From contig OY986966.1 in the NCBI GenBank assembly GCA_963920575.1, forward strand, positions 12,750,048 through 12,814,047: a stretch of 64,000 bases of DNA, in the 5' to 3' direction. Positions 2,121 to 62,615 of the stretch are shown here, piece by piece (the stretch's first letter is position 1; each line of letters opens with the position of its first letter). Both the position numbers and the translations under genes were made by a program. The DNA is from Narthecium ossifragum (taxonomy: Eukaryota > Streptophyta > Magnoliopsida > Dioscoreales > Nartheciaceae). The notes below the pieces were generated by a model. It was given only the letters and a program-made list of their open reading frames with translations, did no database searches and was not told the DNA's origin.

Positions 2121-2401
2121 CTTAAAAGATCGATCTTCTGTGCGCTAGAGATGACAGAGAGCAATGTTTGAAAATATCGATCTTATTCCTATAGAAGATC
2201 GATCTTTTCTAAAATCGAAGTGATTTTTGAGACAGGAAGATCTATCGTCTCCCTATAGAAGATTGATCTCTTATGAAGCTGAAGCAAACATAGAGTATGT
2301 TTTCAAAAGATCGATCTTCTCCTTAAAAAAAATTGATCTTCCTCGGGCGCTGCGAATTGTACGGGATGAAAAGATCGATCTTCATCCCTAAAAGATCGAT
2401 A
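2121..2401 (+). repeat. Array of AAGATCGATCTT palindromes in the A1 U3
   Basis: Perfect or near-perfect copies of the self-complementary word AAGATCGATCTT lie near 2126, 2194, 2307, 2370 and 2391. Decayed copies lie near 2175, 2226, 2258 and 2331. Spacing is irregular at 20-65 bases and spacers are unrelated. The array ends about 65 bases before the TATA box. Confidence 0.85.
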
Positions 2402-2466
2402 TTTTGTTTGAGGTAAGAGAAAAATAAAGCACCCAGCTTTAATCTGAGTTTGAGAAGCTTTAGAGG

Positions 2467-2476
2467 TTATAAATAG
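2467..2476 (+). promoter_or_regulatory. TATA box of LTR A1
   Basis: TTATAAATAG downstream of the palindrome array and upstream of a CAA-rich leader, the position expected of an LTR promoter. Confidence 0.7.
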
Positions 2477-3531
2477 GGGATTTAGGGTTATCAAAGAGAA
2501 AAACAACTAGTTTTGTTTTGGTTTTTCATCTTTATTTATTTATTTTGAACACTTTGGTTGTATTCATGATGAACATGAGTGGCTAGTTTCTTTGCTAAGG
2601 AACTGATGTAGCCTAACTAAATCATTCTATGTCATTAAATCAATTTATTTCTTAATCAATTTATATTCTTTGTTTCATTCATTATTACAACTGAGATCTT
2701 GATACATTTATCTGAACAATAGAAGTATTATAAATTGTTTTATGTGAGATTAGGCGAGGGTTCATCCTTAATCTTGCACAATCTAGGAATGCTTGAGTTT
2801 ATGTCGAAGTCGGGTTTAAGCTTAGACAATTTTTGGTTCATGATTGTTCTTCAGAAGTCAATGGATTCTCGATTGACACTTAGCTATGGGTTTATTAGGT
2901 AGGGTTAGTTTAGGGTACGTGGTGACACCGCAGCCGAACGAATCATCATACTGGAAGAACGAACCCTTGGAATTAAATTTAGATTTTGCGGATTCAGTGC
3001 ATAGAACGAACCCTTGAAATTAAATTGAGATTTTACGTCATTGTTAGATATTTTACTTGAGCAATTCTTGCTTTTACTTCACTTTCTTACTTTCTTTACT
3101 TTCTGTCTTCTTTAGAGTTTTACCCTAATATTATCTACAAATCTCTGTGGGTACGATACTTGTCTTGCTGCTATATTGATTTCCCCGATTCGTATACTTA
3201 TGAGATATTTAATTTATTCATCATCTAACAACTTTCTTAACAAAATAATCAACTCATAATAACTAGGACTCAAATAGAAAACTCAACCAAGAATCAAACT
3301 CTTAATTAACTCTACTAAGACTAGAAAACTAACTCAAACTAGGATAACTCAAACTAAGGAAAGGATATCCTTAGTGGCCGGCCCTTGCTTGGGACCGACT
3401 CCATGGCCGAGTCCTACTAGGAGGCGGGACCGGTCCTGCGTGGAACCTGCCTGGATCCACCTGGTGCATGGGTCCTGCCCCATGGTTGGGCGTGGGTTCG
3501 ACTAGCCCAGGTTGAGCTTGGTTCCCAACCA

Positions 3532-3550
3532 TTTAATCCCCTCCCACTTT
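3532..3550 (-). other. Polypurine tract of element Z
   Basis: On the minus strand AAAGTGGGAGGGGATTAAA lies immediately before the LTR start. In Ty3/gypsy elements this site primes plus-strand DNA synthesis. Confidence 0.8.
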
Positions 3551-3559
3551 GAAAAGTGC

Positions 3560-3842
3560 CTTGTCCTCGAGACCGAAGTCAGGATAACGATCTAAGAAGT
3601 CAGTGAACACCTCTCATGTTGCTTCGCTGGACTACGACGCTTCCAATGTACTAGAACTTCTTCTACTTGACGAGGACGTTACCGATGGTCGATGATAGCC
3701 TGGGGATATACCTTGGGCTGATCTTCTGAGGGGTCTGGAATCTCGGTGGCGACGGGTACCTCAACTCCAATGTGCTTCTGCAGAAGTGATACATGGAAGA
3801 CTGGGTGCACTTTGGGATCTGAGGGAAGACAGAGGTGGTAGG
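3560..3842 (-). pseudogene. Z polyprotein C-terminus (integrase C-terminal and chromodomain-like region)
   Basis: On the minus strand it reads LCLPSDPKVHPVFHVSLLQK, then VEVPVATEIPDPSEDQP, then VEEVLVHWK, and after a frameshift TDFLDRYPDFGLEDKALF just before the polypurine tract. HPVFHVSLL and the 'VLVHWKG..P..ATWE' pattern are known marks of the plant chromovirus integrase tail, which helps target insertion to chromatin. A stop follows IIDHR and the frame changes near 3600, so it is broken. It continues upstream at 5253 on the far side of solo LTR B1. Confidence 0.8.
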
Positions 3843-5247
3843 TGATCGCTTACAAACGCGTCGTTAAAAACGTTACAAACTCAATCAAGAATAAAATTTA
3901 TAAACCCTTATTTCGAATACTAGACTATGAGGTAGAATAGTGATGAAATACGGGATCGAACCACAGGGAAAACTTTGAATACGAAGGAGAAATCAGAATT
4001 AAATCTCGGAACCCTAAATCTAAAGCGAAAAGGATTGATTTGGGATTTTGGAAACTGATTAATTAAAACTAGTGAAGAAGGCGATGTAAAAAGATTGAAA
4101 TATATTAATGAGAGAAAACCTAGGTATTACTCAATCCACTTTAGGTTCACTTATTGTATTCTCTAGTTATCCTCTTGTTTTCTTATCTAGACATTATAGA
4201 TTCACAGCTTCTTAAGCTTACATGAATCCCTAAAAGGAGGAGAGTGTTTTCCAAAGACATATTTTATCTTCGATTCGCGTAGATTGTCTTCGGAGTAACC
4301 TTAGCATAAGCTATCTTCACTAAGCATAAAATATCTCATCGGTTATTCACAAACCACATAAAAACCATCCTATATATCTCTACCATCAATCACCGAAATC
4401 ATATAGAACTGAAAATACGTCAAGGAACTCTGTTCCCTCAACTCTTTTATCATTAAAACCAAATCTATAAGATCATGTTCAGAAAAAGAATACAAGATTC
4501 AACTAGAAAAATACAAGGAAGATCTACTAAAGTTTCATGAGATCCCTAAGTATAGAATTAGCTACTCATCTTTGTGATGGAAGCCTTAGATTCGATCAAG
4601 AATGATTGGGATCCACGTTGTAGCTCCATCTTCTCCATAGAATCCTCCAAACCCTAGTTCTCTCCTTTCTTTCAATGGGGACCTCCAATTTTCGGCCAGC
4701 AAACACCTTCTTATAGGTGTATTCCCGGAATTAGGGTTTTGGGTTGAGTTGGACCTCTAGTGCAACTCGGAATTCCTGGTTTAATTCTGACAGCCTCTTC
4801 CGGTCGTGACTGGGTCGAACCCGTCCGGAATTTGGAAATATGCTCAACATTAAAACTGCTATTTGGACTTATTTGGAATATTTGGTGAATATTCTCCTGA
4901 GCGTCGATGGACAAGTTTCCCAGCATCTGTTTATCTTCATCTTCTTGAAAACGGCTATTAATTTGTCTAGAATCTCCCAAAGTGTCCAACATGAAAGTTG
5001 TTCATCTTGAAGTCTTCTATACGTCCTCCAAATTTCAGGAGTTTAGGATTTATCTGGAGAATTTGGTGAATTCTTTTCAAACTGCCAGCGGAGCAACGTA
5101 ATTTCCACATATTAGTCTTTTTCTGTATTTTCTAACTTGAATCTTCATTAAACCTGAAACCAATTAACAAACTATAAAATACAAACATTCTCGGGCTAAC
5201 AAATGTAAATTAAGGGTTTTTAAGTATGAATATTCAGTGACTCATCA
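3843..5247 (-). mobile_element. Solo LTR B1 (Athila-like family B)
   Basis: On the plus strand it starts TGATCGCTTACAAACGCGTC and ends GTGACTCATCA. GTAGG flanks both sides (3838-3842 and 5248-5252). It interrupts the Z integrase C-terminal frame. Similar LTRs bound B3 (15191 and 25849). Confidence 0.93.
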
Positions 5248-5252
5248 GTAGG

Positions 5253-6600
5253 CGACAACTCCTATGCGCTCTAGTACCTCATATGGCCCATAGAACTTTG
5301 CTGCAAGCTTCTGTGATTTGTTCTTGGCCACAGACTTATGTTGATAGAGCTCTAGCAAGACCATCTCGCCCATCTGGAACTCGATGTTGCGATGTCCTCG
5401 ATTGTTTGCTTCATCCTGTTCTGGACGGCTGGTAATCGTGACTTGAAATCTACTACCACTTGATCCCGTTCAACTAGGAAGTGGTCTACAGTTGCTAATC
5501 TGGCAGTTCAGGGTATGTAGGAAAGGAGGGTTGGTAGAGGTCACCCATACACCACTTCGTAGGGTGTCCTCTGGATGTTGGTGTGCCAACTAGTGTTGTA
5601 ATTGTACTCCGCCCAGGTCAACCATTGACCCCACTATGAAGGTCGATCACCTGAAAAACATCGTAAGTACATCTCAAGGGATCGATTTACTACCTCGGTC
5701 AGTCCATCAGTCTAGGGGTGATATGTTGCGGAGAATCTGAACTTGACTCCCTGGAGTATGAAGATCTCCGGCCAGAAGTTGCCGGTGAAGGTAGGATCTT
5801 GATCACAGACTACGCTAGTCAGCATGCCATGGTGTTTGAACATAGTGTCGAAGAAGACTCGAGCCACTGAGTACGCCGTGTAGGGATTTCGTAGAAGAGC
5901 AAAGTGTGCATACTTGGACAATCTGTCGACGACTACTAGAATCCATGTGGCCTTTACAAGAGGGAAGTCCGTGATGAAGTCCATAAAAACATCAGTCCAA
6001 ACCACCTGTAGAATCGGTAGGGGCTAGAGTAGGCTAGCTGGCTTCAATATCTCAGCCTTGTGTCGCTGACATGTGTCGTATTGACGGATGAAGTCCTTGA
6101 TCCACGCTTGAGCTCCTTTCAAGTAGAAGGTCGTTCACAGACGGTGCCACATCTTGCCGAAGCCTTCATGTGTGCTGAGTGTATGGTCGCCAAGATCTCA
6201 GGGATGACTAGGGATTTCTTCCTTAAGAAGATGCGATTTTTGTGGAAAATGACTCCGTTGTGAATAGTCTAAGGTCTGTTAATTCCTCCATTCTGGATGT
6301 CATTTGCAAGCTTCTGTGTATCCGGATTGGTTCTGACATCCTCCTGAATTGGTTCAAGGCACTATGGTACCGAATTGGAGATGACGGCTACAGAGAGTGG
6401 AGTCACATCCCAATAGAGAGGAACCGAGCTGGACTTGGGTTGGCCGCAAGGAGGGTCAACAAAGTTGGACGGCAAGGGATCAAGGGGTGGTGTGTACAGT
6501 GCCCCTTCTTTGGATTCGACAACTGGTACAGCTATGGGTATTTGGCAAGTCATCATACTGAGTGCTGGCTCTCCATGTTCCACTAGGTTTTAGGTCTCCT
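5253..6600 (-). pseudogene. Z integrase, with the end of the RNase H linker
   Basis: The best-kept part (6005-5712) reads VFMDFITDFPLV, then ILVVVDRLSKYAHF, then VVCDQDPTFTGNFWPE, then FSATYHP. The first aspartate (MDF) and second aspartate (CDQD) of the DDE centre are present; the glutamate region after HPQTD lies past a stop. Upstream (about 6260-6010) the zinc-binding portion can be followed across frameshifts. 6580-6362 is the segment joining RNase H to integrase. Downstream, 5700-5253 reaches the 'NRMKQTIEDIA' region. Integrase would insert the DNA copy. Many stops and frame changes make it nonfunctional. Confidence 0.82.
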
Positions 6601-6611: not shown

Positions 6612-6619
6612 CTAGTGTA

Positions 6620-8180: not shown

Positions 8181-9217
8181 TGATGAATAAATTTTATATC
8201 TCGCAAGTATACGAATCGGTGTCATCAGTATAGCTGCAAGACGAGTATCGTACCCACAGAGATTTGTAAAGATTATTAGAGAAAAAGGCTAAAGAACAAA
8301 GAAGAAAGAAAATAAGGAAGGTAAAGTAAAAAATAAGAAGTACCAAAAATAGAAGATCTAATAACAAAATAAGAGAACGATGGAAATTTGATGGATTAAG
8401 ACTAAGGTTCCGATTTCACCATAACATCCTCATTCTATGCATTGAATCAACAAAATCTCAGTTTAATTCCAAGGGTTCGTCCTTCCGGTATGATGATCCG
8501 TTCGGCCGTGGTCTTCAGCAAGTACCCTCACTTAACTCTTGATAATGAACCGATAGCAAAGTGTCAATTAAAAATCCATTAAACTCTGAAGAACAATTAT
8601 GAACCAAGAATTGTCTTAGCTTGAGCCCGGCTTCGACATAAACTCATGCATTCATAGATCCTGCAAGATTAGGAAATGAACCCTCACCCAATCTCATATA
8701 AAATAATCTATAATACTTATATTTGTCAAATATAAGTATTTAAGATCTCAATTATAATAATGAAAGAAACAAGGAATATAAACTAATTTAATAAACATGA
8801 TTCAATAACATAGAATGACTCTGTTAGGCTACATCGGTACCTCAGAAAAGAAACTAGCCACTCATGTTCATCATGAAAACAACACAAGTGTTCAAGGAAA
8901 AATATAGAAAGAAAGACGAAGAAAACAAAACCCTAACGCAGCTTTCTCTCCTCCAGATGCTCCAGAAAAGTCCTCCTAGAAATCCTCAAAAACCTTCCTT
9001 TTGATAACCCTAAGTATCTTATTTATAGGCTTCAAAAGTCTTGAAATCGGTTAGGTCCGCACCCGTTATACGCTCGCGGTCGATCCGACGGTCAATTTGA
9101 CGGTCGACCATCAACTGTACAACTTTATTTGGAAAAGCAGCGGTCAACCTTCGCATCGACCTTGAGAAGCCTTTTTCTTGACAGAGGCTCATGGTCGATC
9201 TCGTGGATGATGCCATC
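8181..9217 (-). repeat. 3' LTR of element A, missing its U3 start
   Basis: It matches the 5' LTR at 28880-29888 through R/U5 and into U3. It keeps TATAAATA (minus strand, 9029-9022) and a GGTCGACC array (9075-9205), but stops at 9217, where an oppositely oriented LTR begins. The normal U3 beginning is absent. Confidence 0.8.
9075..9205 (-). repeat. GGTCGACC-type palindrome array, element A 3' LTR
   Basis: Copies of GGTCGA(C/T)C lie near 9078, 9103, 9130 and 9193. GCATCGACC with the spacer GAGAAGCCTTTTTCTTGACA lies at 9151-9183. On the minus strand the array is just upstream of the TATA box at 9029-9022. Confidence 0.8.
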
Positions 9218-9510
9218 TGAACAGTCTTATAACCATATCAATTGCTAGATTGTCATACTTAATCAATCTCTTTAGTGCTATTTTTATATTTATATGTTGC
9301 TTCACATAGTTATTTGGAAAATGCAGGAAATTGGAGCTAAAAGAAGCTGAAAAGAGTACATGGGTGAACTTGGAAGATTAAACTATACCTTCTCATGAAG
9401 AAATAGATGATGTTCCATAAATGATTGGAAAACTATTGATGTCTACTTTCTGGATAATTTTACGGTTCATGATTCTGAGTTTCATAAAGGAAGTTACAGT
9501 ATTTTTAGTA

Positions 9511-9745
9511 CTAATGGTCGACCATCGCATCATCCGCGAGATCGACCGTCGTGCTCACTATACTCACGGTCGACCATCGCATCATTCATGAGATCGATCG
9601 TGAGCCTCTGTCAAGAAAAAGACTTCTCAGGGTCGATGCGAGGATTGACCGCCACTTTTCCAAATAATGTTGTACAGTTGACGGTCAACCGTCGCATCGA
9701 CTGTGAGATCGACCGCGAGCGTATAACGGGTTTAAACCTTACCCG
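9511..9745 (+). repeat. GGTCGACC-type palindrome array, A-prime LTR
   Basis: Copies of GGTCGACC, GATCGACC and GGTCAACC near 9514, 9540, 9568, 9593, 9632 and 9684-9716, with the spacer GAGCCTCTGTCAAGAAAAAG between two of them. It ends about 45 bases before the TATA box at 9767. Confidence 0.8.
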
Positions 9746-9766
9746 AGTTTCTTAACTTTTGGAGCC

Positions 9767-9774
9767 TATAAATA
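9767..9774 (+). promoter_or_regulatory. TATA box of the A-prime LTR
   Basis: CCTATAAATAGG follows the palindrome array and precedes a GTTTTTGG-rich leader. Confidence 0.7.
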
Positions 9775-10622
9775 GGAAACTTAGGGCTAGTCAAGAGAGG
9801 TTTTTGGACGTTTTTGGTCTTTTTCTGACCTTTTCTAGAGGAGGAAGGAGACCAATCCACCATCCACGGACGAGTAATCTTTGGGCATGGCAGATGGATG
9901 ACTGAGCAAGCACGAGGGTTTTTCTTCTACATCATTGGTTCATGTTTTAATTTTTAATGTTTAAACTCTATATATGTATTGGATCTTCATAGATGCTTTT
10001 GTGGTTGAATATTATTATTAATCCAGTCATACTACTTTTTATGATATTTTGATCCCATAGTTCTCTCTCTTCATTCTCCTACCTAGTCTCGTGAAATTTT
10101 TGCTATACATTATCCGTAGTGACAACTGATATTGTGTATTCTTAGGGATATAGTAAGACAAGGTTAGGGCTTTGTCCCGTGAGACTTTTGCTGCGTGTTG
10201 CCTGTAGTGACAGCCGATATCGTGTATTCTTAGGTTCTGATACGACGGAGTTAGGGTTTCAACGAGAAGAACCAAACATAGAAAGAGATATTTATATTTT
10301 ATCAGATTCATAATTCCATATCTTCCAGTTGAGGTGATTGGGATGTCAATCCCTCGACTGAGTTTTGCATGAACCATTGATAAGAGAAGAGCCCAAGTCC
10401 GAGTGAAGGATTCTTGAACCCTAGCCTCATTGAAATTCTGATTTCTTTCATTAACTTTATTTTACCATTAAATCTTCGATCTAACTTTCTTAACTTTTAC
10501 GCTCTTGATTGTTTTCGATACATAGTTACCTGTGTTTCTGGATCCTTTCTACTTGTTTCTCTGTGGGATCGACCTCTCTTATGTTGTACTGCATCGCGAC
10601 CGCTGTGCGAGACACATTTGAG

Positions 10623-11230
10623 CGACATCACTGACCAATCATCCAACCCTCGCACTTTAACTAAAACATGCTCTTTCTTTTTCTTTATTTTTATAGCTAT
10701 CAGTAGTTCTACCTTTTTACGCGAGCTCCCCACTTCCCGAGCCAAGAACCCCCTGTTACTCAGTAGATCACTTGAACTACAATATTTTTTTTCTCTTTGT
10801 TTTAGCTATCAGTGGTTCTACCTTTTTACGCAAGCTCCTCGTTTCCTGAGGCAAGAACACCCGGTTACTCAGTAGATCACTTGAACTACAACATTTTAGG
10901 CACAACTTGATCAAGCTCCAGATTTTTTTTTCTGCATGCAATACTCAATATACTAGCTAAAGTTGAAACCATGGTCCAGATTAACAATAGCATGCTCATT
11001 CCTCTAGTGAGTATAATTGCCACTTGCACATAAGGTGTTCGTGTGTGAACCACATGATGTTCTACCTTCAGGTTATCACACATGCCATCAATGTATAGGT
11101 CAATCCATGTGAAAGCAACATGTATAATAAGCATAAAAATTTCAGCTCATGTACAATTTTTAATAACATGCTCATTTCAACACTATTAAATCAACTATTT
11201 TGTGAATAAGGTCATGAATGTCTACACCCC
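10623..11230 (-). other. Athila 3' noncoding tail of element A
   Basis: On the minus strand this matches the tail at 44900-45420: same order, and the same paired 'agtaaccggg ... cgcgtaaaa' units (minus, at 10880-10804 and 10772-10695). It holds no long frame. The final polypurine tract is lost where the inverted LTR at 10622 joins. Confidence 0.75.
10695..10880 (-). repeat. Tandem pair of conserved tail units, element A
   Basis: Two copies of about 77 bases (10695-10772 and 10804-10880) share AGCTATCAGT(A/G)GTTCTACC, TTTTTACGC and GGTTACTCAGTAGATCAC. Read on the minus strand each is AGTAACCGGG ... GCGTAAAAAGGTAGAACC. Confidence 0.85.
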
Positions 11231-15190: not shown

Positions 15191-16623
15191 TGATCGCTTG
15201 CAAACGCGTCGTTAAATCAGATGCAAACTCAATCAAAAATAGAATTTATAAACCTTTATTCAAAATACTAAACTATGGGGTAGAATAGTGATGAAATACG
15301 GGATCGAATCATAGGGAAAACTTTGATTATAGAGGAGAAACTAGAATTTAATCTCAAGACTCTATACCTAAAGCGAAAAGGATTGATTTGGGTTTTAGAA
15401 ACTTATTAATTAAAACTAATTAAGAAAGCGATGTAAAAAGATCGAAATATATTAATGAGAGAAAACCTAGGGATTACTCAATCCACTTTAGTTTCACTTC
15501 CAGTACTCTCTAGTTATCCTCTTGTTTTCTTAACCAGACATTATAGATTCATAGCTTCTTAAGCTTAAATGAAACCCTAAAATAAGGTGAGTGTTTTCCA
15601 AAGGCATATTTGATCTTCGATTAACATAGATTGTCTTCGAGGTAACCTTAGCACAATCTATCATCACTAAATATAAAATACCTCATTGGTTATTCACAAA
15701 CCACACGAAAACTATCCTATAGATCTCTACCATCAATCAACGAAATCATGTAGGCCAAAATATACGTCAAGGAACTTTGTTCCCTCAACTCTATTAGCAA
15801 TAAATCCATATCTATCAGATTATGTTCAGAAAGAAATACAAGTATCAAACTAGAATAATACAGAAAAGCAACACTAAAGCTTCATGAGAAGCCAAGTACA
15901 AAATTTAGCTACTCATCTTAGAGATGGAAGCCATAGATTCGATGAAGAACGATTGGGATCCACGATGCAGCTCCATCTTCTTTAGAAACCCTAATCTTAT
16001 ATTTTCTCTCAATGGGGGCCTGCAATTTTCTGCCAGCAAACACCCTCTTATAGGTGTACTCCCGGAATTAGGGATATGGCTAAGTTGGACTCCTACTACA
16101 ACTCGGATTCCCTGGATTAATTCCTAGCAGTCTATTCTGGTAGCAAATGGGTCCAATCAAGCCGGAATAGGAAATTACGTCCAACACAAAGGATGTAGAG
16201 TATGAAGTCTTCTGTTCGATCCCGAAGATTTAATAATATTCGGACTTATCTGGAATATTTGACAAATATTCTCCTGAACATCGACGGACTAGTTTCCCAG
16301 CATCTGTTTATCTTCATAGTCTCCAAAATTGGTATTCATCTGTCATCAATCTCACAAAGTGTCGAACAGGAAAGTTGTTTGTCTTGATGTCTTGTAGAAT
16401 TCCTCAAAAGTTCAGGAATTTAGGACTTATCTGGAGATTTTGATGAATTCTTTTCAAACTGACAGCGAATCGACGTAATTTCAACATATTAGCCTTTTTC
16501 AGTATTTTCTAACTTGAATCTTCATTAAATCTGAAATCAACTAACAAACTATCAAATACAAAGACTCTCGGGCTAACAGAGGTAAATTAAGGGGTTTAAG
16601 TATGAATATTTAGTGACTCATCA
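15191..16623 (-). repeat. 3' LTR of B3
   Basis: Starts TGATCGCTTGCAAACGCG on the plus strand and ends TAGTGACTCATCA. The internal region with its purine tract (CACCCCCCAACTTAC) begins right after it. Confidence 0.92.
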
Positions 16624-19261: not shown

Positions 19262-19545
19262 ATTGGCGGTTGATCCGACGGTCAACCGTGAGAGTGGGTG
19301 ATCTTGGGACACTAAGGCGATGGTCGACCATGTGATGACAAACTAAGCCTACGGTCAATGCGACTGTCGATCGGCCATGAATGATAAGATTTGGTTGAGG
19401 AGGCGACGGTCGATCGTGGCATCGACCCTGAGAAGCCTTTTTCGTGACAGAGGCTCACCGACAATGCAACGGTCGATCGTGAGCTGCGTGATTTAGTAGA
19501 GGCGGTGACGGGTGATTCAGCGATTGATGGGACGGTCGACCGTGG
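19262..19545 (-). repeat. GGTCGACC-type palindrome array inside B3, after integrase
   Basis: Copies of GGTCAACC, GGTCGACC, GGTCGATC and CATCGACC near 19275, 19322, 19365, 19409, 19421, 19471 and 19534. They include the spacer GAGAAGCCTTTTTCGTGACA at 19430-19449. This spacer is nearly identical to that in the A LTR at 9151-9183, though B3 is a different family and this is internal sequence, not LTR. Confidence 0.85.
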
Positions 19546-25513: not shown

Positions 25514-25660
25514 ATGCTCACGGTCGATCGTTGCATCGACCCCGAGAAGCTTTTTCCGTGCCAGAGCCTCACGGTCCACCCGGCGGTCGATGTCACGGTC
25601 GACCGTGGCAATCGTAGAGGACGACGGTCGATCCGGCGGTCGATGTGGCGGTCGATAGTC
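25514..25660 (-). repeat. GGTCGACC-type palindrome array in the B3 leader
   Basis: ACGGTCGATCG, CATCGACC, ACGGTCGACCGT (25597-25608), ACGGTCGATCC and GGCGGTCGAT recur every 20-40 bases between the primer site and gag. It again contains a GAGAAGCTTTTTCCGTGCCA spacer (25542-25561). Confidence 0.85.
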
Positions 25661-25826: not shown

Positions 25827-25844
25827 TCCCTGGCAACGGCGCCA
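25827..25844 (-). other. Primer-binding site of B3 (tRNA-Asp type)
   Basis: The minus strand TGGCGCCGTTGCCAGGGA differs at one base from the Athila consensus TGGCGCCGTTGCCGGGGA, which is known to pair with tRNA-Asp. It lies four bases inside the 5' LTR edge at 25849. Confidence 0.9.
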
Positions 25845-45727: not shown

Positions 45728-46743
45728 ATGAGTGCATGAAAGTGCACTCTGAACATGACTAAGAACAGCTTATTTACTTAGTTTTCATGATTAGTATGGT
45801 CGATTTCATCCGTATATGTTGCTTCACAAAGTTATTTATATTATGCAGGAAATTGATGTGCTGTCGCAGGCACTCAAAAATAAAATCAATACTCTTCAAA
45901 ACAAATGTAGTAGTGCGAGTACGAGTCGATCCCACGAAGAGTGTTCAGTCTAGTTTTGTGCTTAGTGAACAAAGATAGGGGGGTTTTTAAACGTGAGGAA
46001 AAACAATAAAGAAATAATCTAAATAAAAGAAACAAGTTGAATCAAGAGAACAAACCTTGGTCTGAGTCAACATCCACCATCGGAATCCAACAACTGATCA
46101 TAGATGCAAGTATCAATCAATTCATACCATGAATATTCACCGTCCGAATTAAATTCGAATCTCTCCTCGATCATAGTTAATTAGAAACAAGCGATCTAAT
46201 CAACCCTAACTACTAGACAACCTAAGACAAGCGCTGTAGATTTAATCTAGTAGCAGCATTAAGAATAGGGAGATCGATGAAGTTAAACAACACAAGCACA
46301 AGCGGTTGTATTTAATCTAGTTGAATATTCTTCCTAAGATCTAACAAGATCTGATCAGCAGTAAATTATTAGATCCTAGTTGCTTCGCAGATTAGAGGGA
46401 TCAAACAATTCCGGATTTGATATCCAACCGAGCAGTAGATCGCCATGAATAATAAACTAGTAGCGCTCCTAGCAATTAGACAAGACAATCATGAAGATAA
46501 ACACAGAAGAACATTCAATACTCATCTATAAACTGAACAATAAAAATAAATTAGATCTCACAGTCTCATTGATTCCGAGGTTTCAGTCTCCTCGACCAAG
46601 GATCAAGATTTAGCCACGCAGGGCCATCGAGAACAATCCTCAAAAGATTCTCATAAAGAAAATAAAACCTAGAAAAAATATAAAGGAGGAGAAAGAGCAG
46701 CCAAAAGTGTCCAAGAATCCCCCCTCAAACCCTAGAAAGAGTC

Positions 46744-46753
46744 CTATTTATAG
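46744..46753 (-). promoter_or_regulatory. TATA box of LTR E
   Basis: The minus strand GGCTATAAATAGGAC lies about 60 bases past the palindrome array. Confidence 0.65.
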
Positions 46754-46811
46754 CCTCAAGTGTATCCACCCTCGGATTAGATCACAATCGTTGATTTTCT
46801 TTACTGGGAAA

Positions 46812-47165
46812 AGTCCGATCGATCGGACCTTGGATGCTGGATCGATCGGCCTCATTAAACTCTTCAACTTGTAGTCACGCCCGAGTCCGATCGATGGATG
46901 GATCGATTGAACTTTGCTCCTTTAGAAAGCATACGTTCTGTCAACTTTAATTCCCAAGTCCGATCGATCGAACTTTAAGTGCTGGATCGATCGGATGCAT
47001 AAAAATCCACATTCTCTGGGTATTTTTGAGTCCGATAGATCCAACTCTAGGAGTCGGATCGATCTAGCTCAATAGGAGGGATGGTTCGATCGATCGAACC
47101 ATATTCAGCCAAAAACTACATGTTCTGTCACGGTTTTGCCAGGTCCGATCGATCGGACCTTCGCT
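46812..47165 (-). repeat. TCCGATCGATCGGA palindrome array, LTR E
   Basis: Perfect TCCGATCGATCGGA occurs at 46814-46827 and about 47145-47158. Variants GGATCGATCGG, TCCGATCGATCGAAC and TTCGATCGATCGAAC lie near 46840, 46963, 46985 and 47087, 20-60 bases apart. Confidence 0.88.
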
Positions 47166-47778
47166 CGGACTTCCAGCTTATTTTCCTTTCTGCCATTCAG
47201 ACTGCGCATCGGTACTGAAATTGCCGTAACTTCCTCTAGGAAACTCAGAATCACGAACCGTAAAATTCTCCAGAATCTAGACTTCAAGAGCTTTCCAACC
47301 ATGTATGGCACATCCTCTGGTTCTTCATGAGCAGGTACAGATAAATCTTTAAAGTTGATCCATGCACTCTTTTCAGCTTCTTTTCGACTTAAGGACTTCA
47401 ATTGCATCCTAAATCAAAATATAAGAATAATGAGTGTATTTAGGAACTAAATAAGCACAGGAGACTAAGTATTAAGGGATAAAAATATAACATTATGCAT
47501 TCTCATCAGAAATTGAAGCAAAGATGGGTCTTTAACGCCAAAAATTATACATTCTCATGAAGAACCAGATGATGTGCCATATATGATTGGAAAGCTCTTG
47601 AAGTCTAGTTTCGGGAGAATTTTACGGTTCGTGATTTGGATCCTCATAGAGGAAGTTACAGTGTTTTTAGTGCCAGTGCGCAGTGCAGAATGACAGAAGA
47701 AATATGCAGGAAATAATAGATCTATCTTCCTTACATAAAAGATCGATCTCTTATGCATGAATAGATGAAAAAGACCCA

Positions 47779-48175
47779 CGGTCGACCGTCGCCTCGACCG
47801 TCACGCTCAAAAATCCTCACGGTCGACCGTAGCATCAACCGTCAGCCTCTGTCAAAGAAAACACTTCGTAGGGTGGTTGCGAAGATCGACCGTGAGCGAA
47901 AACAAGAAAGTTGGAATAAAAGATCGATCTTCTTTACTAGGAAGATCGATCCTTTGTGAGCGTTGACAACAACTGATGAAAGAGATCGATCTCTTCCTTG
48001 AAAAAGATCGATCGGAACCTGGGCGATCTGGAAGGAACCCAGTGTACAGATAAAGAAGATAGATTCTTTTCTTAGGGAGATTGATCTTAGTCAGGGCGAA
48101 CAAGGTTACAGAAATTGAGAAAAAAAAGAAGATCGATCTTTATCCCAAAGAAGATCGATCCCTTGTCAGACGACC
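47779..48175 (+). repeat. Mixed palindrome array, A-prime LTR copy 2
   Basis: ACGGTCGACCGT occurs at 47779-47790 and 47820-47831, then the TCAGCCTCTGTCAAAGAAAA spacer. AAGATCGATCTT, AAGATCGATCC, GAGATCGATCTC, AAAGATCGATCGG and AAGATCGATC(T/C) copies continue to 48175. It ends about 60 bases before the TATA box. Confidence 0.88.
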
Positions 48176-49107: not shown

Positions 49108-49125
49108 TGGCGCCGTTGCCGGGGA
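49108..49125 (+). other. Primer-binding site of the A-prime block (tRNA-Asp type)
   Basis: TGGCGCCGTTGCCGGGGA, an exact match to the Athila consensus, seven bases past the LTR end. Confidence 0.93.
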
Positions 49126-49354: not shown

Positions 49355-51290
49355 ATGCCTCGGTATAGAGACGAAATAGGCAGATTTGCTAAACGTCCCT
49401 AGGGTGATTCTGAAACTTCTGATAGTGAGACATGTATTGCTGATCTCTTTGACGCACAGTCACAAACTTCACATCATATTTTCATTATGGCTGAGCACGA
49501 GGAAGAACAACCTCCTAGGAGTTTGCAAGAATATTTGCATCCCACATGCACTGCTACACCTTCATGCATCATGTTTCCACCTAATGTAGCACATGTTGAC
49601 TTTAAACCTGACATGATTCAGTTGCTTCCTACCTTTCATGGGATGGAAAATGAAAATCCATATGTGCATATTAGGGAGTTTGAGGAAGTAGTAGCGACCT
49701 TCCATAGCCAACCAGGTGCACTAGATATGATCCGACTTAAGTTTTTTCCCTTCTCATTGAAGGATAGAGCGAAGAGTTGGTTATATTCCTTGAGGCCACG
49801 ATCTATAGGATCTTCGGCTGAAATGACACAGATATTTTTCAACAAGTATTTCCCACAACACAAAACTAATGCACTTAAGAGACAGATTTCGACCTTCACA
49901 CAGAAGGATAGTGAAACTTTGTATCATGCGTGGGAATGATTTAAAGACATGTTGAATTTATGTCCTCATCATGGATATGAAAGTTGGCGTCTTGTTAGTT
50001 ATTTCTATGATGGTTTAACTGTTAGAGAACGTCAATTTGTTGAGATGATGTGCAATGGTGAATTTTTGCAAAAAGATCCTGATGCAGCAATTGAATACTT
50101 GACTGAGCTTGCTGAGAAAGCACATACATGGACTGGACCGAGTGCAACAGAAAGTACAAATAGGGCAAGACCACCACCGCAGAAACCAGGTGGAGGTATT
50201 TATCAGCTGCGGGAGGAGAATGCACTTAAGGCTAAAGTGGAGAGTCTAACAAGGGAGCTGGAGCTATTAAAGACCAAAGATATGATGGCAGCCCGGACCT
50301 CTTCATTTAATGAACCTACAAGGCCGGCTGGGCCGTGTGCGATATGTCAGGGCGTGGACCACCAGATTGACGGTTGTTCTACTTATGTTGAGATGAGAGG
50401 TGTGTATGACAAGCATTGCAACGCTGTAGGCGGATTCAGGAGGCCGTACACCCCTTACTCGGAAACGTATAATCCAGGATGGCGAGAGCATTCGAACTTC
50501 TGCTGGAAGTCGAATGCTCCACAAAGCAACGAGCATCATCAACCGCCACCTAATAAGGCTTTTTCTAACCCTCCTTATAATACATCTGGTTTTCCTAGGC
50601 CTACATTTAATGACAGTTTACAGGAATTGAAATCCATGATTGTGCAGGAATCCAAGGAAAGAAAGGAGGATGTTGAAGAGATCAAGAGCCAGATCACAAA
50701 GCTGATCAACTCTTTGAGCGTGCATGAACGAGGGAAGTTCCCAGCTCAACCTCAACAAACGCAGGTATCTACTGCTGAGCAAAATAATGTGAAGGAGATG
50801 AACGCCATAACTAAAAGAAGTGGGAAAACAACAAAAAGTCCTTCACAAGAGCCCACAGAACCTCCTATTGTTGTTGAAGAAGAGGACCAGATTAAGGAGA
50901 ACCATGTAGAGGCCGATCATCCAGATGGCCCTACGCCAGGTGACTTTAAGGTACGTGTCCCTTTTCCTCAGGCATTGAAATCCACTAAATTTACTATGGA
51001 GCCCAACAGCGAGATTTTGGAGCATCTTCGGCAGGTTAAGGTAAACCTTCCTCTTTTGCACGTTATTAAGCAGATTCCTACATATGCTAAAGTGATTAAA
51101 GATTTATGCACTATGAAGAGACGACATCATGTAAAGAAAACTGCATTTTTAACAGAGCAGGTTAGTGCACTGTTTCAGCATAGGATTCCTCCTAAATATA
51201 AGGATCCTGGCTGTCCTACTGTGTCTTGTTTCATTGGAGAGCATGAAGTAGGACAAGCTTTATTAGATCTTGGTGCAAGTGTTAATTTCC
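49355..51290 (+). pseudogene. A-prime gag and protease start, nearly intact frame
   Basis: One frame from ATG at 49355 (MPRYRDEIGRFAKRP) is broken only by TAG at 49400-49402 and TGA at 49937-49939. It has the conserved SLQEYLHPTCTATPSCIMFP, the capsid domain (IRLKFFPFSLKDRAKSWLYS), YFYDGLTVRERQFVEMMCNG, and a leucine-rich coiled coil (LKAKVESLTRELELLKTK). The zinc knuckle is CAICQGVDHQIDGC, followed by TYNPGWREHSNFCW, a gag-protease linker with HVIKQIPTYAKVIKDLC, and finally ALLDLGASVN of the protease, where the element is cut. Gag would form the particle and bind RNA. The TGA replaces a codon where the family has arginine (WE-R-FKD), a likely CGA to TGA change. Confidence 0.9.
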
Positions 51291-54313: not shown

Positions 54314-56342
54314 TGTCGCGTCCCGACCCGTGAAGGTCCAACCGGGCCGGGCGACACGAACCGGAACCTAACTAAATGCAGAATAATTTTGACGAGGGGT
54401 TCCCTCTAGCTTATTGGTTTCCCTAAACATTTCATAAGCACCCTTATTTAACGATAATTCCAAACATCAACAATAAAACAAAGATATATTCAAATCCTCA
54501 AAAGGGTTTACATTCATATACATCATACTACCGTATGAGACTAACTATAACAAAAAAGGTAGACGACGATCACCGCTCCTCAAGCAACGTTGACGCCGCC
54601 GCGCCACCAAACACCTGCCAAGTAGGGGCCACTGAAGAAGACCTAACACTTGCACCTGCAAAACACAGCCCGGGTAGGAGTGAGCATCAAGATCAGTAGG
54701 GTTCTACACTACGACACACAGAAAGGAGGAAACACAACAGTGTCGCCCTGAAGTAAGACTTAGGTGTGCTACAGGATCCCATAACCCCACCGGTGTCTAC
54801 AGGTGTCCAACCATGGTTACCCTAATGAACTGGGCCCGTCCCGAAAACACCTAGTACAGCAGGAGGAAGACACTGCTATGCAGGACAAGTCTCTGCCGGA
54901 TAGGCACACCCTCTGCTCAAGGATGAAACGACGACACCAGTTGCACCCTCAGCACCTAGCCCGAGGCCGACACGACCTCTAAAATCATCGATCATCATGT
55001 ATTTAAGTCATATACGCCTATCATCGATATCGACTGAATATTACAATCCAACTTGGACCACGCTACCCACCACAGTCCTAGAGCTAAATCCAAGCTACCC
55101 GAAAAGCCTCGGATTGGTGATCAACCCATCGTCCACGCCCTATCATTATGCATCTAATGCACAATTAAAAATGCATATTAAAATATGATAAAATAACAAA
55201 TATGTCCAACTGGACTGCTGCAGCGATACCAACGATCGCTACCAGCCAATCCGCAGCGGATCCCAGCATTACGATGGTATCACGACCATCAACCACGAAC
55301 CCCTGCAATGGGAAGCAACACCGAAAACACAAATGAACATATAATATTATTTCATCATCAAGATCCCCTAATTAGAGACTAAGCGACCTCGTCGATCCGA
55401 CATCCAAACGACGTCGGATTCAAGATTCAACTTAGAAAAATACAGGTAAACATGCTGGGATCAACATATCCATAACCAGGAAACATCTGACAGCTCGATT
55501 ACCGGGAAAACGCTAACCAAAACCATTAACTTCACTAATTAGCTCTAAATGCTGCAACGCAGCCCATCCGTAGGAAATTCTTAGAAATTTATAGAAAACT
55601 TATAAAATTATGAAACTTGTTGGACCTGATAGTAGACCCAAAGATCTAGAACTCTCATGTTCATCATAAATCAAGATTATGCATGTACAATGCAGAAAAC
55701 CCACCGTAAGCCGATTGTTCTTCAAGAACAGCAAAACCGGAAAATCCGTGTTCAAGCATGCTAAAATCCTACTAAAACCACAATCAAAGCATATGAAACT
55801 AAAACCAGTAATCAAGCTAACGTAGATACACAAAATAACACCAAGAACACCCAGATCCACCGGCTAGATTAAGAGAAAACCCATTTTAAACCCAAGTAGG
55901 AAGAAAGCTACCGAACTCAGCAACCTCGGCTGAATCCCCACTATTCGAGCACTAAACCGGCTTCAAACCAAGACAGGATTGATCGGTCCCAGGACCGATC
56001 GGTCAGACTGGGCCAGGTTAAGTCAGTTCGCGTCCTTATCCAGACACGTCGGCCGCGTGACAAATGACACAGGTCCGATCGGTCGCTTCCAGGAGCGACT
56101 GATCGCAGACGCCAACTGTCAAAAAAACAAGCTTCTGCGCTCCCGAGCTTGGATCTTTCGATCCGAAGCCCGCCTAGGGTTTCTATCAAACACATAAATC
56201 AAATAAAAGGGGTTGTGTCTGTACCACGTGGGTGTGAAACAAACCGACAAGACACAATTTACCAAATTGCCCTTGCGGTCCACAACGAGCCACGGGCCCG
56301 ACCTAGACAGTCGACCCATGAGTAGAGGGACATGTCCTCACA
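54314..56342 (-). repeat. Complete C-type LTR C4 (3' LTR of a Tekay/Del-like element)
   Basis: On the minus strand it starts TGTGAGGACATGTCCCTC at 56342 and ends GGGACGCGACA at 54314. It follows a polypurine/terminal segment and a polyprotein end (56833-56354), so it is a 3' LTR. The pentamer before it (CATGT) also precedes C3 at 41007-41011. Palindrome words CCGATCGGTC lie at 55975-56110. Confidence 0.85.
55975..56110 (-). repeat. GACCGATCGGTC-type words in LTR C4
   Basis: GATTGATCGGTCC, GGACCGATCGGTCAG, GGTCCGATCGGTCGC and GAGCGACTGATCGC lie in two pairs. Confidence 0.75.
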
Positions 56343-56353: not shown

Positions 56354-56833
56354 TTAAAAGAAATCTCGTCCCGAGATTCGATAATGGTAGGGTTCAGAAA
56401 CAACAAACCAGCTACTACAGTAGAAGACAGGACAAAGGCTACCTTGAGAAGGAAACAAGTGCGGATACTCCTGCAGCATGCGCGCCTCGCGCTCCCAGGT
56501 CATCTCCTCGATGCCTCTGTGCCTCCACAGTACCTTGACTAAGGGAATCATCTTGCCCCACAAGACATGATCCCTCCGGTCAAGTACCTGAATTGGCTGC
56601 TCAACGAACGTCGCGTATGTCTCATGCTCGATGTCATTCACTCTGATGACATGAGATGGGTCTGGGTTATACTTCCTCAGCATCGACACATGAAAAGTTG
56701 GATGCACAGCTGACATGTGCTGAGGAAGATCCAGGCAGTAAGCTACCTCACCAATCCTCTCTAGGATCTCGAACTGCCAGACGAACCTCGGCGCCAACTG
56801 ATGTCGCGCAAATTTGTCACGCACAGCGGTCAC
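56354..56833 (-). pseudogene. Tekay/Del-like polyprotein C-terminus (integrase tail and chromodomain-like)
   Basis: An open 159-residue segment has QLAPRFVWQFEILERIGEVA, YCLDLPQHMSAVHPTFHVSM, LRKYNPDPSHVIRV, EQPIQVLDRRDHVLWGKMIP, LVKVLWRHRGIEEMTWERE and ARMLQEYPHLF. This is the standard end of Tekay/Del chromovirus pol, where the last part is a chromodomain-like fold that binds chromatin. The start is cut by LTR D2 at 56836, and the frame is otherwise clean to its end. Between it and C4 lies ATCTCGGGACGAGATTTC, the usual purine-rich junction. RT and the integrase core are not in the window. Confidence 0.87.
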
Positions 56834-56835
56834 GG

Positions 56836-57078
56836 TGTCACACCCCGACCCAGAAAACCCATCTAGGACGGGGCGTGAGGGTTCCTATCACTATTCATCA
56901 TCAACCGGCGCGATACAAAGCGGAAAAGATACATAATTTAAACAATTGTATTCCAGAGGCTAAACAGATTCAATCATAATATATATATATCATCAAGTAG
57001 TACAATGCCTAAGTTCCAATATACAGATTTATACAAAATCCCAAAGGTTCTCCAAAATGTTTACATCATATACACATA
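56836..57078 (-). repeat. D-type LTR fragment D2
   Basis: Starts TGTCACACCCCGACCCAG after CACGG and shares its beginning with D1. It is interrupted at 57078 by the Helitron-like terminus. The rest of the LTR is not found before the gap. Confidence 0.7.
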
Positions 57079-59873: not shown

Positions 59874-60073
59874 NNNNNNNNNNNNNNNNNNNNNNNNNNN
59901 NNNNNNNNNNNNNNNNNNNNNNNNNNNNNNNNNNNNNNNNNNNNNNNNNNNNNNNNNNNNNNNNNNNNNNNNNNNNNNNNNNNNNNNNNNNNNNNNNNNN
60001 NNNNNNNNNNNNNNNNNNNNNNNNNNNNNNNNNNNNNNNNNNNNNNNNNNNNNNNNNNNNNNNNNNNNNNNNN
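59874..60073. other. Assembly gap (200 N)
   Basis: Exactly 200 undetermined bases, probably a placeholder of arbitrary size. It separates the Helitron-like segment from the C5 LTR. Confidence 0.98.
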
Positions 60074-61350
60074 ATGAAAATCCTTTGGAAACCTCATCAA
60101 ATCCCCCCCCACATGCTTCCCAACATGTTTAGATACTAATCCCCCATCAAAACCATCCAAGAAATACCTGAAAACCAAGTTCAAAGGGTCACGAACGATG
60201 TCACGGTCGATCCGGGGATCGACCGTGAGGTCACGGACGATGCCACGGTCGATCGCCGGATCGACCGTGAAACCCATGCGAAGAAAACCCAGGGCGACGG
60301 TCAATCAACCCATCAACCCTGAGAAGCCCAAAACCAAACAGCGACTGACGGTCGATGCGACGGTCGACCGTCAGGTAAATGGCGAAAAGGAGAAGATCCC
60401 ACGATCGATCGATCCATCGACCGTGGGAGTCCAAAATCCCGACAGAGGCCGACGGTCGATGCGACGGTCGATCCGACGGTCGACCGTCAGGCCCAGAAAG
60501 GGTAAAACAACACTTGACGGTCGATGCACCGATCGACCGTCGAGCCTTGGCACAGTTCATCAGAATAGTGCCGGAAACCCATTTCTTTGGATTTCAAGTA
60601 TAAAATCACGTTGGAATAAGATGAAATCTTGCAAGCAAGTATATTTAGCAAAGGGGAAGCTAATGGAGTGAAGAAATCCAGTTTTCGACGGTTAAATATC
60701 TTATCTAGGTCCAAATGGACAAAAACCGATAAAACAGCGATAATACGGAAACCAACCGTTCAAATACTGAAATCTCAACGTAGGAATACAGGAAATGAGT
60801 TACACTACACATACAAAGAGTTACAAACCATTCTAACTTGTATTCCTACAGCGAAAGTGCAATAATCCTATCCTAGGAGAACCCGATCCAAGGATCGAGG
60901 TAGAAACACCTACCTAAGCAAGTAGGGTAGCTCCTCCACGCGTGCCACCAGCCGAGCCGCCAAGATCCAAGCTCCGAAAGCCGAAGTCTCCAACCCTAGC
61001 TCAGCCGAAGGAGAGAGAGAGGAGAAAACGACAGGAGAAGAAGAGAAGGAAAGAGAAGAAAGAGACAGGCCTTATATAGAAATTCCAAATCTATCTCAGC
61101 CGTCCAAATCGATCTTTCCCGATCGAGCTCCGATCCTCCGATCGGACACACCCTAGGGATTCTAATCAAACACATGCATCAATCAAAGTCAGTGTGTGGA
61201 ACGCGTGTGTGAAACCGACCACCAGAGGGCATATTTACCAAAATGCCCCCGGGGTCCAAAACCGCCACACGATCGCCCGATCGCGCCCGACGCGGAACCA
61301 AACCAACAAAAAACCGGCTCTCGACCCACGTGGTCGAGTCAGGTCTGAGG
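60074..61350 (-). repeat. C-type LTR C5, partial
   Basis: The minus strand runs from GAGCCCGTCCCTCAGACC at the right to the gap at the left, parallel to C6 in the opposite direction. The LTR start TGTGAGG is replaced by A-prime sequence through a shared GGGC. TATATAA on the minus strand is at 61078-61072. ATCGATC and CGATCGGA words lie at 61109-61150, and a large array at 60203-60545. Confidence 0.8.
60203..60545 (-). repeat. GGTCGACC-type palindrome array, LTR C5
   Basis: ACGGTCGATCCGGGGATCGA, ACGGTCGATCGCCGGATCGA, ACGGTCGACCGTCAGG (twice), CGATCGATCGATCCATCGAC and ACGGTCGATGCACCGATCGA recur every 20-45 bases. Many arms pair with the next copy (GGTCGATnn...GATCGACC). Confidence 0.9.
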
Positions 61351-61498
61351 GACGGGCTCTTCTTTTACCAACGGTTCATTCAATACTCAGTTAAGGGATT
61401 CACATCCCAATCACCTTAACCGGAAGATAAGGAATTATGAATCTAACAAAATATATAATTGTCTCTTCCTATGATTGATTCTTTCTTATTATAGTTCT
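61351..61498 (-). repeat. A-prime LTR sliver between C5 and C6
   Basis: On the minus strand this matches 48727-48880 (ATATATT, TTAAGGTGATTGG-ATGTGA, TCCCTTAACTGAGT, GAACC.TTG). The left junction is inside GGGCTCTT, common to both parents. Confidence 0.75.
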
Positions 61499-61784
61499 TG
61501 TGAGGGCCCGTCCCTCTGACATGGCTTGACCATGTGGGTCGAGGGCTGTTTTCCTGTTGGTTTGATTTCGCGTCGGGTACGATCGGGCGATCGTATGGTG
61601 GTTTTTAGCCCTAGGAGCATTTTGGTAAATATGCCCCCTGGTGGTCAGTTTCACACCCACGTTACACACACAGCCTTGGATTGATGTTGTGATTGATTAG
61701 AACCTTAAGGGTGCTTTCGATCGAAAGATCGGAGCTCGATCGGGAAAGATCGAATTGGACGGCTGAGATCGGCCCTGATCTCTG

Positions 61785-61790
61785 TATATA
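61785..61790 (+). promoter_or_regulatory. TATA box of LTR C6
   Basis: TGTATATAGCC after TCGATCGA-type words at 61716-61760. It mirrors the site in C5. Confidence 0.55.
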
Positions 61791-62324
61791 GCCTGTCCCT
61801 TTCTCTCTCTTTTCTTCTCCCTGTCGTTGTCTCCTTCTCTCTCTCTTTCTCTCTCCAACTGGCTGAGCTAGGGCTTGGAGGCACGAATTTTGAGGAGCGG
61901 ATCTTGGCAGCTAAAATCGTTGGGCGCGTGGAGGAGCTGCCCTACTTGATCAAGTAGGTGTTTCTACCTCGATCTTGTGATCGGGTTCTCCTAGGATAGG
62001 TTTATAGTGTTTTCGATGTAGGAATACATGATAGAATGTTGTGTAGTTAAATACATGAATGTTATAGCATGTGTATAGTAGTTGTACTTCTTGGTTTTCA
62101 TATTTTATCGGATGATTCTCGTATTATCGTCGTTTTGTCGGTTTTTGGCCATTAAGACCTAGATTTGATATTTAACCATCAAAATCGTGTTTAATTCATA
62201 CCATTAGCTTCTCCATCATCTATTACGCATGCTTGCAAAGTTTCATTAATTTCCAACAAGCTTTGATCATTCAAATCCAAGAAATTGGATTTCCGGCACT
62301 GTTCTGAAGAACTGTGCATAAGGC

Positions 62325-62615
62325 CCGACGGTCGATCGGCGGATCGACCGTCAATCGTTGATACGCTTCTTTCTGGCCTGAGGGTCGACTCGACGGTCGA
62401 CCGTCAGGCTCTGTCGCGTTTTTGGTCTCCCACGGTCGATGCATCGATAGATCGCGGGGCTCCCTCTCTTTTCCTTTCCGCCTTACGGTCGACCGTCGCA
62501 TCGTCCGTGAGGCTTTGTCTCGTTTTGGGCCTCCCAGGGTCGATGTGCCGATCGACCGTGGCCCTTATGCTTTTCCCTTGTTTGGCCCCACGGTCGACTG
62601 TTAGATCGACCGTGG
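62325..62615 (+). repeat. GGTCGACC-type palindrome array, LTR C6
   Basis: ACGGTCGATCGGCGGATCGA, ACGGTCGACCGTCAGG, ACGGTCGATGCATCGATAGA, ACGGTCGACCGTCGCATCG and GGGTCGATGTGCCGATCGAC lie between spacers of GGCT(C/T)TGTC(G/T)CGTTTTGG type. Confidence 0.9.

Follow-up and report, generated by a model that had tools for sequence, protein, structure and literature searches.

The closest described counterpart of the structures considered here is the repeated motif (RM) of Sireviruses, a group of Ty1/copia long terminal repeat (LTR) retrotransposons. According to the accessible part of its description (Bousios et al. 2010, PMC2829016), the RM of 13 elements is palindromic, is present in 8-32 copies per element, 3-14 of them in the 3′ LTR and mostly upstream of the TATA box, is linked to CpG islands in most elements, and is a different palindrome in each; extra copies lie upstream of env, and the motif is called Sirevirus-specific relative to the other Ty1/copia elements compared. 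In maize, Sirevirus palindrome clusters in the LTR regulatory region are small-RNA hotspots and evolve rapidly (Bousios et al. 2016, as related in the available passages of PMC10760457 and PMC5311732). Here we describe rows of short palindromes centred on TCGA in a 64,000-nt stretch of Narthecium ossifragum DNA (OY986966.1, positions 12,750,048-12,814,047; hereafter the window), which contains nested Ty3/gypsy elements, as judged by self-BLAST and end sequences.

The resemblance extends to the words themselves, insofar as the accessible part of PMC2829016 gives them: the Vitis RM CGGTCGACCG is the core of the window's ACGGTCGACCGT, the Tnd-1 RM ACAATCGATTGT has a TCGA core, and the CGG-CCG signature of Sirevirus RMs is found in ACGGTCGACCGT, but not in AAGATCGATCTT, AGGATCGATCCT or the GATCGATC arms. 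The Narthecium arrays differ in residing in two Ty3/gypsy lineages rather than in Ty1/copia, in having fewer copies per LTR than the at least eight per Sirevirus, and in showing a paired 22-bp geometry and a replacement of palindrome arms beside a conserved flank in the unique 3′ (U3) region of the LTR, neither of which is described for Sireviruses in the same part of the source. As in maize, the clusters lie in the LTR regulatory region and evolve fast, but no sense-RNA pairing signal was detected in their arms. On sequence grounds, we regard them as a gypsy counterpart of Sirevirus RMs, previously described mainly in that other retrotransposon group; Ty3/gypsy would thereby gain a feature described for Ty1/copia Sireviruses, one of which, from grape, even has the same palindrome core. 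The first-pass annotation of this DNA, which knew of no named element of the kind, had overlooked this very close precedent. No report of palindrome arrays in gypsy LTRs was found among the titles and abstract openings listed, which is weak evidence of absence, as subscription journals fell mostly outside the coverage; the exact array words match 100 papers, and the 30 of these that were listed look, from titles and abstracts, like chance occurrences in primers or DNA oligonucleotides. We consider it fairly probable that the arrays constitute a variable upstream enhancer in U3, composed of paired dyads for a dimeric factor and renewed in concert.

Enrichment and placement of the palindrome arrays

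Perfect TCGA-core palindromes greatly exceed their second-order Markov expectation (15 simulations) in the window, with 35 against 4.7 expected at 10 nt or longer (7-fold), 27 against 1.7 at 12 nt or longer (16-fold), and 13 against 0.27 at 14 nt or longer (49-fold). When the 16 four-base cores were compared there, all four flanking pairs matched at 8.5% of 318 TCGA sites, versus 0.5% in simulated sequence, the runner-up being ACGT with 2% (2/98 sites). The density of TCGA is 28.7/kb in 13 stretches delimited by eye around the palindrome words (3,664 bp) and 3.5/kb elsewhere, a contrast that is partly circular. In the genome as a whole (379.4 Mb), exact ACGGTCGACCGT occurs 12,621 times and AAGATCGATCTT 12,229 times, while the same words reversed, serving as controls, occur 10 and 33 times.

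A survey of twenty 10-kb stretches, whose positions on contigs C1-C4 were fixed beforehand, and of four further stretches (240 kb in all) extended these observations beyond the window; L-numbered labels below denote other stretches of the same genome, each with its own coordinates. The 20 stretches contained 42 TCGA-core palindromes of at least 12 nt (3.6 expected) and 17 clusters of at least three near-palindromes (units with three of four flanking pairs matched), as opposed to 0-3 clusters for other cores, except TTAA, TATA and ATAT with 6-12; the four further stretches added two TCGA clusters, while eight other cores had none there. The arrays are not equally dense outside LTRs, an outcome that the first-pass annotation would have taken as refuting it: array-free LTR probes mark 15.6% of the 240 kb, and 14 of the 19 TCGA clusters are no more than 400 bp away from a probe match. 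Among the off-probe clusters, the one at 3,843-4,208 in L011 belongs to an LTR by its primer-binding site (PBS) and TATA box, those at L016 3,918, L020 9,871 and L024 9,159 have an array-to-TATA promoter block, and the one at L011 4,796 follows an apparent integrase end, as read by eye.

The arrays of the window, with the labels A1, C1, C4, C5, C6, E and F of the first-pass annotation matched to loci by arm sequence, are:

1762-3223, plus strand: A1, a solo LTR of the Athila/Tat-like lineage, defined by self-BLAST flanks and end sequences
2126-2401, plus strand: A1 array, AAGATCGATCTT; TATAAATA at 2,468
9078-9200, minus strand: array of a truncated LTR (~8,181-9,207), GGTCGACC type; TATA (minus) at 9,021-9,027
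9514-9712, plus strand: array of an LTR at ~9,208-10,630, GGTCGACC type; TATAAATA at 9,767
19320-19543, minus strand: internal array after pol, in the element between LTRs 15,191-16,623 and 25,849-27,279
25520-25656, minus strand: internal array in the leader, between the PBS (25,827-25,844, minus) and gag
36838-36940, plus strand: C1 U3 array, GGATCGATCC pairs 22 bp apart; TATAAAG at 36,961; LTR start 36,626
37309-37543, plus strand: second C1 array, 3′ of the TATA box
44227-44495, plus strand: C5 mixed array, ACGGTCGACCGT units followed by GATCGATC pairs; LTR truncated before the TATA box
45854-47508, minus strand: E, an LTR nested inside the C6 LTR, with a 5-bp target duplication GAAAT read at both ends
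46813-47160, minus strand: E array, TCCGATCGATCGGA and variants; TATA (minus) at 46,747-46,753
47740-48160, plus strand: C6 mixed array, ACGGTCGACCGT and AAGATCGATCTT; TATATAAA at 48,237; PBS at 49,108-49,125
60182-60545, minus strand: array of an F-type LTR
62324-62618, plus strand: F array, ACGGTCGACCGT; LTR start 61,499

Arms vary from one LTR to another, in line with the family-preferred arms claimed initially: AAGATCGATCTT in A1, GGTCGACC at 9.1, 9.5 and 19.3 kb, GGATCGATCC in C1, TCCGATCGATCGGA in E (exact twice), and ACGGTCGACCGT, in exact copies, at 19.5, 25.6, 44.2, 47.8, 60.4-60.5 and 62.4-62.5 kb. The placement of the array shortly before the TATA box was likewise confirmed for A1, the 8.2- and 9.2-kb LTRs, E, C6 and C1, in which the last TCGA precedes TATA by ~24-77 bp. 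Other parts of the first description did not hold: C4, credited with 4-10 copies, has just one TCGA and two perfect palindromes of at least 8 bases, with a GATC core (GACCGATCGGTC, CCGATCGG); the arrays at 19,320-19,543 and 25,520-25,656 sit inside a minus-strand element and not in LTRs; and the F array lies ~540-830 bp downstream of a TATA-like word.

Independent of palindrome content, a second sample was drawn with a 177-bp U3 domain that ends where the array starts, used as a probe against the genome. This domain (e.g. 9,340-9,516 of the window) is strongly conserved, with 86-100% identity in the 40 matches scored and listed out of 2,347 first-look candidates, and 14 of the 39 places outside the window were fetched. 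All 14 LTRs have, as in Sireviruses, the core word repeated upstream of TATA, with four to eight TCGA between the U3 domain and the TATA box, which follows the last TCGA by 54-88 bp; every one has at least one near-palindrome, and 6/14 have at least three.

The array is followed by TATA in 12/12 Athila/Tat-like LTRs compared. A block of the type CAGATCTAATCCGAG ahead of TATAAATAG is readily recognised in E, L011, both L012 LTRs, L016 (3.9 kb) and L024, and less sharply in the other Athila/Tat-like LTRs, the distance from the last TCGA to TATA being 66 bp in L011, L012 (2,763-2,922), L024 and E, and 68 bp in A1. Of five chromovirus-like LTRs compared, C1, L016 and L027 have in common a different block, GTCGGTTC..TTTG.CTATAAA, which was not found in L021 and L022; in L022 a decayed array with one intact unit precedes the presumed TATA box, and a second array with TTGGATCGATCCAA arms and 13 near-palindromes follows it.

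Extra RM copies precede env in Sireviruses, and arrays here are found after pol, at 19.3 kb of the window and at 4,796-4,891 and 5,505-5,530 in L011, before an open reading frame (ORF) of unassigned kind. The L011 palindrome pairs lie past the presumed end of pol, around the start of this ORF (5,480-6,133 stop to stop), and TATTTATA is found at ~5,092; together they may possibly form an internal promoter.

We assign the arrays to two Ty3/gypsy lineages, Athila/Tat-like and chromovirus-like, to which the several different families of the first-pass annotation can be reduced. Three LTR families are discernible in the window. The first, of 1.4 kb, is represented by 15,191-16,623 and 25,849-27,279, which are 92% identical and flank a minus-strand interior with pol and gag; since no matching target duplication was seen, they may not derive from one insertion. 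The second, starting with TGATG, includes the arrays A1, 9.5 kb, C5, C6 and E, and its downstream part is shared by the truncated LTR with the 9.1-kb array. The third, starting with TGTGAGG, includes C1, C4 and F, and we take its tail to resemble that of Del/Tekay. Three further features bear on lineage:

49403-49936, plus strand: gag ORF after the C6 LTR and PBS, Retrotrans_gag 4e-10
55930-56100, minus strand: C4, the beginning of a chromovirus-type LTR; its CCGATCGG palindromes have a GATC core (two perfect copies), and there is no TCGA array
56357-56884, minus strand: integrase C-terminal ORF directly upstream of the C4 LTR, SH3_Tf2-1, Pfam 1.2e-19

We call the TGTGAGG type chromovirus-like because it adjoins an integrase with SH3_Tf2-1, both at 56,357-56,884 and in L027; a search of the integrase C-terminus for the chromodomain gave no Pfam Chromo match. 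The PBS TGGCGCCGTTGCCGGGGA occurs, with up to three mismatches, at 3 places against 0.01 expected, together with related gag and pol; we take it to be of the tRNA-Asp type that marks Athila/Tat (OTA) Ty3/gypsy elements, and the Athila/Tat-like lineage is named from this combination, by likeness. Coding neighbours are Ty3/gypsy-like (Retrotrans_gag, Integrase_H2C2 with rve, SH3_Tf2-1, RT_RNaseH).

Spacing, arm covariation and CpG decay

The units are spaced in a quantised manner. In 29 arrays picked by eye, adjacent GATCGATC-class intervals measure 21-23 bp in 55/111 cases and adjacent GGTCGA-class intervals 12 bp in 23/65, and the 72 intervals of the 14 U3-probe LTRs include 10 at 12 bp, 10 at 24 bp and 9 at 22-23 bp; arrays of GGTCGACC type are built mostly from half-sites at 12- or 24-bp steps. 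In the window, chance can be excluded for the 12-bp spacing (21 pairs against a maximum of 9 in 2,000 random placements). The two arms covary at flank 3, with 54/100 matches against 32.6 expected (0/2,000 permutations), and again in the 14 U3-probe LTRs (28/69 against 16.3; 0/2,000). Within 12-bp pairs, flank 5 covaries beyond the core (14/21 against 8.7; 27/2,000).

Palindromes of this kind could instead act in the transcript, as RNA hairpins involved in packaging or dimerisation, or as double-stranded RNA feeding host small interfering RNAs, a possibility that we consider unlikely. Array-centred 150-nt windows do fold better than shuffled sequence, at a mean z of -2.96 (n=71), compared with -0.32 elsewhere (n=1,199), and 28/71 (39%) fall below z -3, compared with 2.8% elsewhere, but any row of palindromes folds well. 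The outer arms of 12-bp pairs extend into long stems, e.g. TCACGGTCGAT/ATCGACCGTGA, and show the flank-5 covariation given above, and small RNAs pile up on maize Sirevirus palindrome clusters, according to the available text of PMC10760457. If sense-RNA pairing were under selection, G.U should outnumber A.C wherever arm pairs are imperfect, but sense-strand mismatches lean, if at all, towards A.C: G.T 37 versus A.C 46 in the 29 arrays (p 0.38), and 48 versus 66 (p 0.11) in 43 arrays. Outer arms gave 49 versus 36 in 22-bp pairs (p 0.19) and 11 versus 17 in 12-bp pairs (p 0.34). Sense-RNA pairing is disfavoured by the lack of a significant G-U excess, with the flank-5 covariation and a skew among deaminated cores (sense strand, 43 arrays: TTGA 18, TCAA 6; two-sided binomial ~0.02) pointing the other way. 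Hairpins, moreover, need neither the fixed 22- or 12-bp spacing nor the place before TATA. Because arm mismatches are without significant G-U bias, DNA dyads appear more likely than RNA hairpins, though not certain.

The arrays have an observed/expected CpG ratio of 1.36, compared with 0.71 for the remaining sequence, and in this sense the words do keep their CpGs, as initially proposed; individual copies, on the other hand, decay at CpG in the normal way. In 12 aligned stretch pairs (4 array, 8 flank), CpG was conserved in 0.693 of 179 array cases and 0.691 of 356 flank cases, and had changed to TG/CA in 0.162 and 0.169, respectively, it being understood that alignment inside arrays is uncertain and that the pairs differ in age. 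The GpC control was conserved in 0.514 of array and 0.669 of flank cases; since GpC is less conserved in arrays, CpG appears to be kept relative to local drift between families, a pattern in keeping with selection acting on active copies rather than with protection after insertion. Protection of array CpGs from methylation is unsupported, as they decay like flank CpGs.

This bears on the improbable alternative that the arrays are anti-silencing targets, at which an element- or host-coded protein would remove or block methylation, as VANC does on VANDAL. VANDAL elements are DNA transposons. In the accessible part of PMC5735166, the VANC targets of Arabidopsis VANDAL elements are short motifs in non-coding tandem repeats that vary and diverge together between related elements, a pattern like the one seen here, and the CpG enrichment of the arrays is also in line with such a role; VANDAL elements bring their own VANC protein, and the word "palindrome" is absent from the paper. 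Apart from the equal decay of array and flank CpGs, the occurrence of arrays in both lineages makes a single element-coded protein unlikely. Of the shared functions put forward initially, silencing resistance thus loses CpG retention as its reason and hairpins are less probable, while binding of a dimeric factor in cis fits best because of the pre-TATA place, quantised spacing, covarying arms and lack of significant G-U bias.

Arm turnover and its possible basis

U3 domains in the window are 78-83% identical in ten pairwise comparisons over 130-321 bp (A1, 9.2-kb LTR, 28.9-kb LTR, E, C6), and lie at:

1859-2067, plus strand: conserved U3 domain of A1, identified by self-BLAST
9,300-9,516; 29,562-29,800 (minus); 47,196-47,403 (minus); 47,542-47,744: other copies

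The arms beside them change faster. By our own reading, the 14 U3-probe LTRs comprise nine with GGTCGACC arms, two with ATGATCGATCAT, one with CCGATCGATCGG, one AGGATCGATCCT-like and one mixed, in which AAGATCGATCTT is accompanied by one GGTCGACC unit. The U3 domains of L033 and L036 are 92% identical, yet their arms are AAGATCGATCTT and GGTCGACC, respectively; arms from one array share an identity of 0.59, those from different arrays 0.33 (0/2,000 permutations). Since arms differ beside a 92% identical U3 and are alike within arrays, we infer that whole arrays are exchanged or converted in one piece while their position stays the same. A stepwise change from AAG..CTT to ATG..CAT is also seen, with intermediates in L037 and L039.

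Arm likeness within arrays and these stepwise intermediates are what one would expect of a mutational by-product, in which reverse transcriptase or repair perfects and multiplies quasi-palindromes of no function. We regard this as very improbable: 17 TCGA clusters were found in the 200-kb survey when most other cores gave 0-3 (TTAA, TATA and ATAT 6-12), place and spacing are constant, and TCGA runs are present in 14/14 U3-probe LTRs.

Derivation of all arrays from one recent LTR, which the first-pass annotation would have counted against itself, holds in part: it is rejected for the arms on account of L033 and L036, and common descent is retained for the U3 flanks, which are homologous within a lineage, and less surely for a CTCTGTC cassette seemingly shared across lineages. 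The 7-mer CTCTGTC/GACAGAG has 8 of its 10 window places in arrays, and TCGACCGTCAG(C/G)CTCTGTC is exact in C5 and F; versions that depart from it by one or two changes occupy the same register in the 9.5-kb LTR, C6 and the minus-strand F-type LTR. An alignment of C5 with F spans 79 bp at 73% identity (E 1.6e-10), a score of the sort that palindromes inflate. Cassette transfer between lineages appears likely but not proven. An IMG/VR search with the cassette matched three contigs, with no array in the three stretches examined. Spacers on the sense strand read CTCTGTC in GGTCGACC-type LTRs (9.5-kb LTR, C5, C6 and 6/9 such U3-probe LTRs) and GACAGAG in GATCGATC-type LTRs (A1, L012, L037), a pattern suggestive of inverted cassettes.

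Under the enhancer reading, each unit would be a DNA dyad located between the conserved U3 domain and the TATA box, with GATCGATC-class units paired about two helical turns apart and GGTCGACC-class half-sites 12 bp apart. A host dimeric transcription factor, or a family of paralogues, would probably bind them cooperatively and drive transcription. Conversion, unequal exchange or cassette swapping would renew the array as a whole, and arms would therefore be alike within an LTR and different between close LTRs. The sequences themselves show the enrichment, position, spacing and covariation of the arms and their replacement next to a conserved flank; binding by a host protein, the promoter role and the route of homogenisation are deduced from these. 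Gypsy LTRs can act as enhancers, given that barley self-transcribing active regulatory region sequencing (STARR-seq) yielded 1,946 LTR/Gypsy enhancers, according to the available part of PMC12016029.

Several observations count against this reading. Just one or two near-palindromes are present in 8/14 U3-probe LTRs; some arrays lie 3′ of TATA (C1 second array, F, L022) or inside the element; and the minus-strand LTR at 28,879-29,888, although from an array-bearing family, has no array. Tests on the 29 arrays are partly circular, as these were picked by eye on account of their palindrome words; the 21-23 bp pairs of the window number 16, against a mean of 8.1 and a maximum of 18 in 2,000 random placements; flank 3 is the only one with clear covariation, the remaining seven giving 23-1,156 of 2,000; and dyad DNA predicts no skew of the kind seen between TTGA and TCAA cores. 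In the array-free LTR, the U3 block extends to 29,562, the downstream block starting at 29,566, and a decayed PBS-like word lies beside this LTR.

It is conceivable, though we rather doubt it, that three deep branches of plant retrotransposons (copia Sireviruses, gypsy Athila/Tat elements and gypsy chromoviruses) all exploit one family of host dyad-binding factors, or several that co-evolve, through TCGA-centred sites. The promoter would then remain constant while the arms, like keys, change together, in a lock-and-key arms race or a separation of niches among families, and cassettes would move from lineage to lineage. Should the arrays be enhancers, the 24,850 copies of two 12-mers would be very abundant regulatory words that could rewire nearby genes. 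Because the constant promoter is distinct from the quickly changing array, and the array adjoins a flank that aligns well, co-evolution of mobile-element enhancers and host factors can be tested directly.

Other features of the window

The plant origin of the sequence is evident from its gag homologues, which come from many named plants, the best-scoring of these being 54% identical (Olea); a Protein Data Bank (PDB) search with one ORF gave no match. Additional features are:

1757-1761 and 3224-3228: 5-bp target duplication TCTAA of A1, from end sequences
30,927-30,931, minus strand: unoccupied target of A1
34,161-34,444: 144-bp unit in tandem duplicate
59,874-60,073: 200-base assembly gap, ~110 bp from the minus-strand F-type array

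Matches to Rfam snoR71 were found at 49,871-49,977 (minus), 24,727-24,833 (plus) and 28,212-28,318 (plus). The first two are antisense to gag or gag-like ORFs, and this Rfam family may pick up retrotransposon gag.

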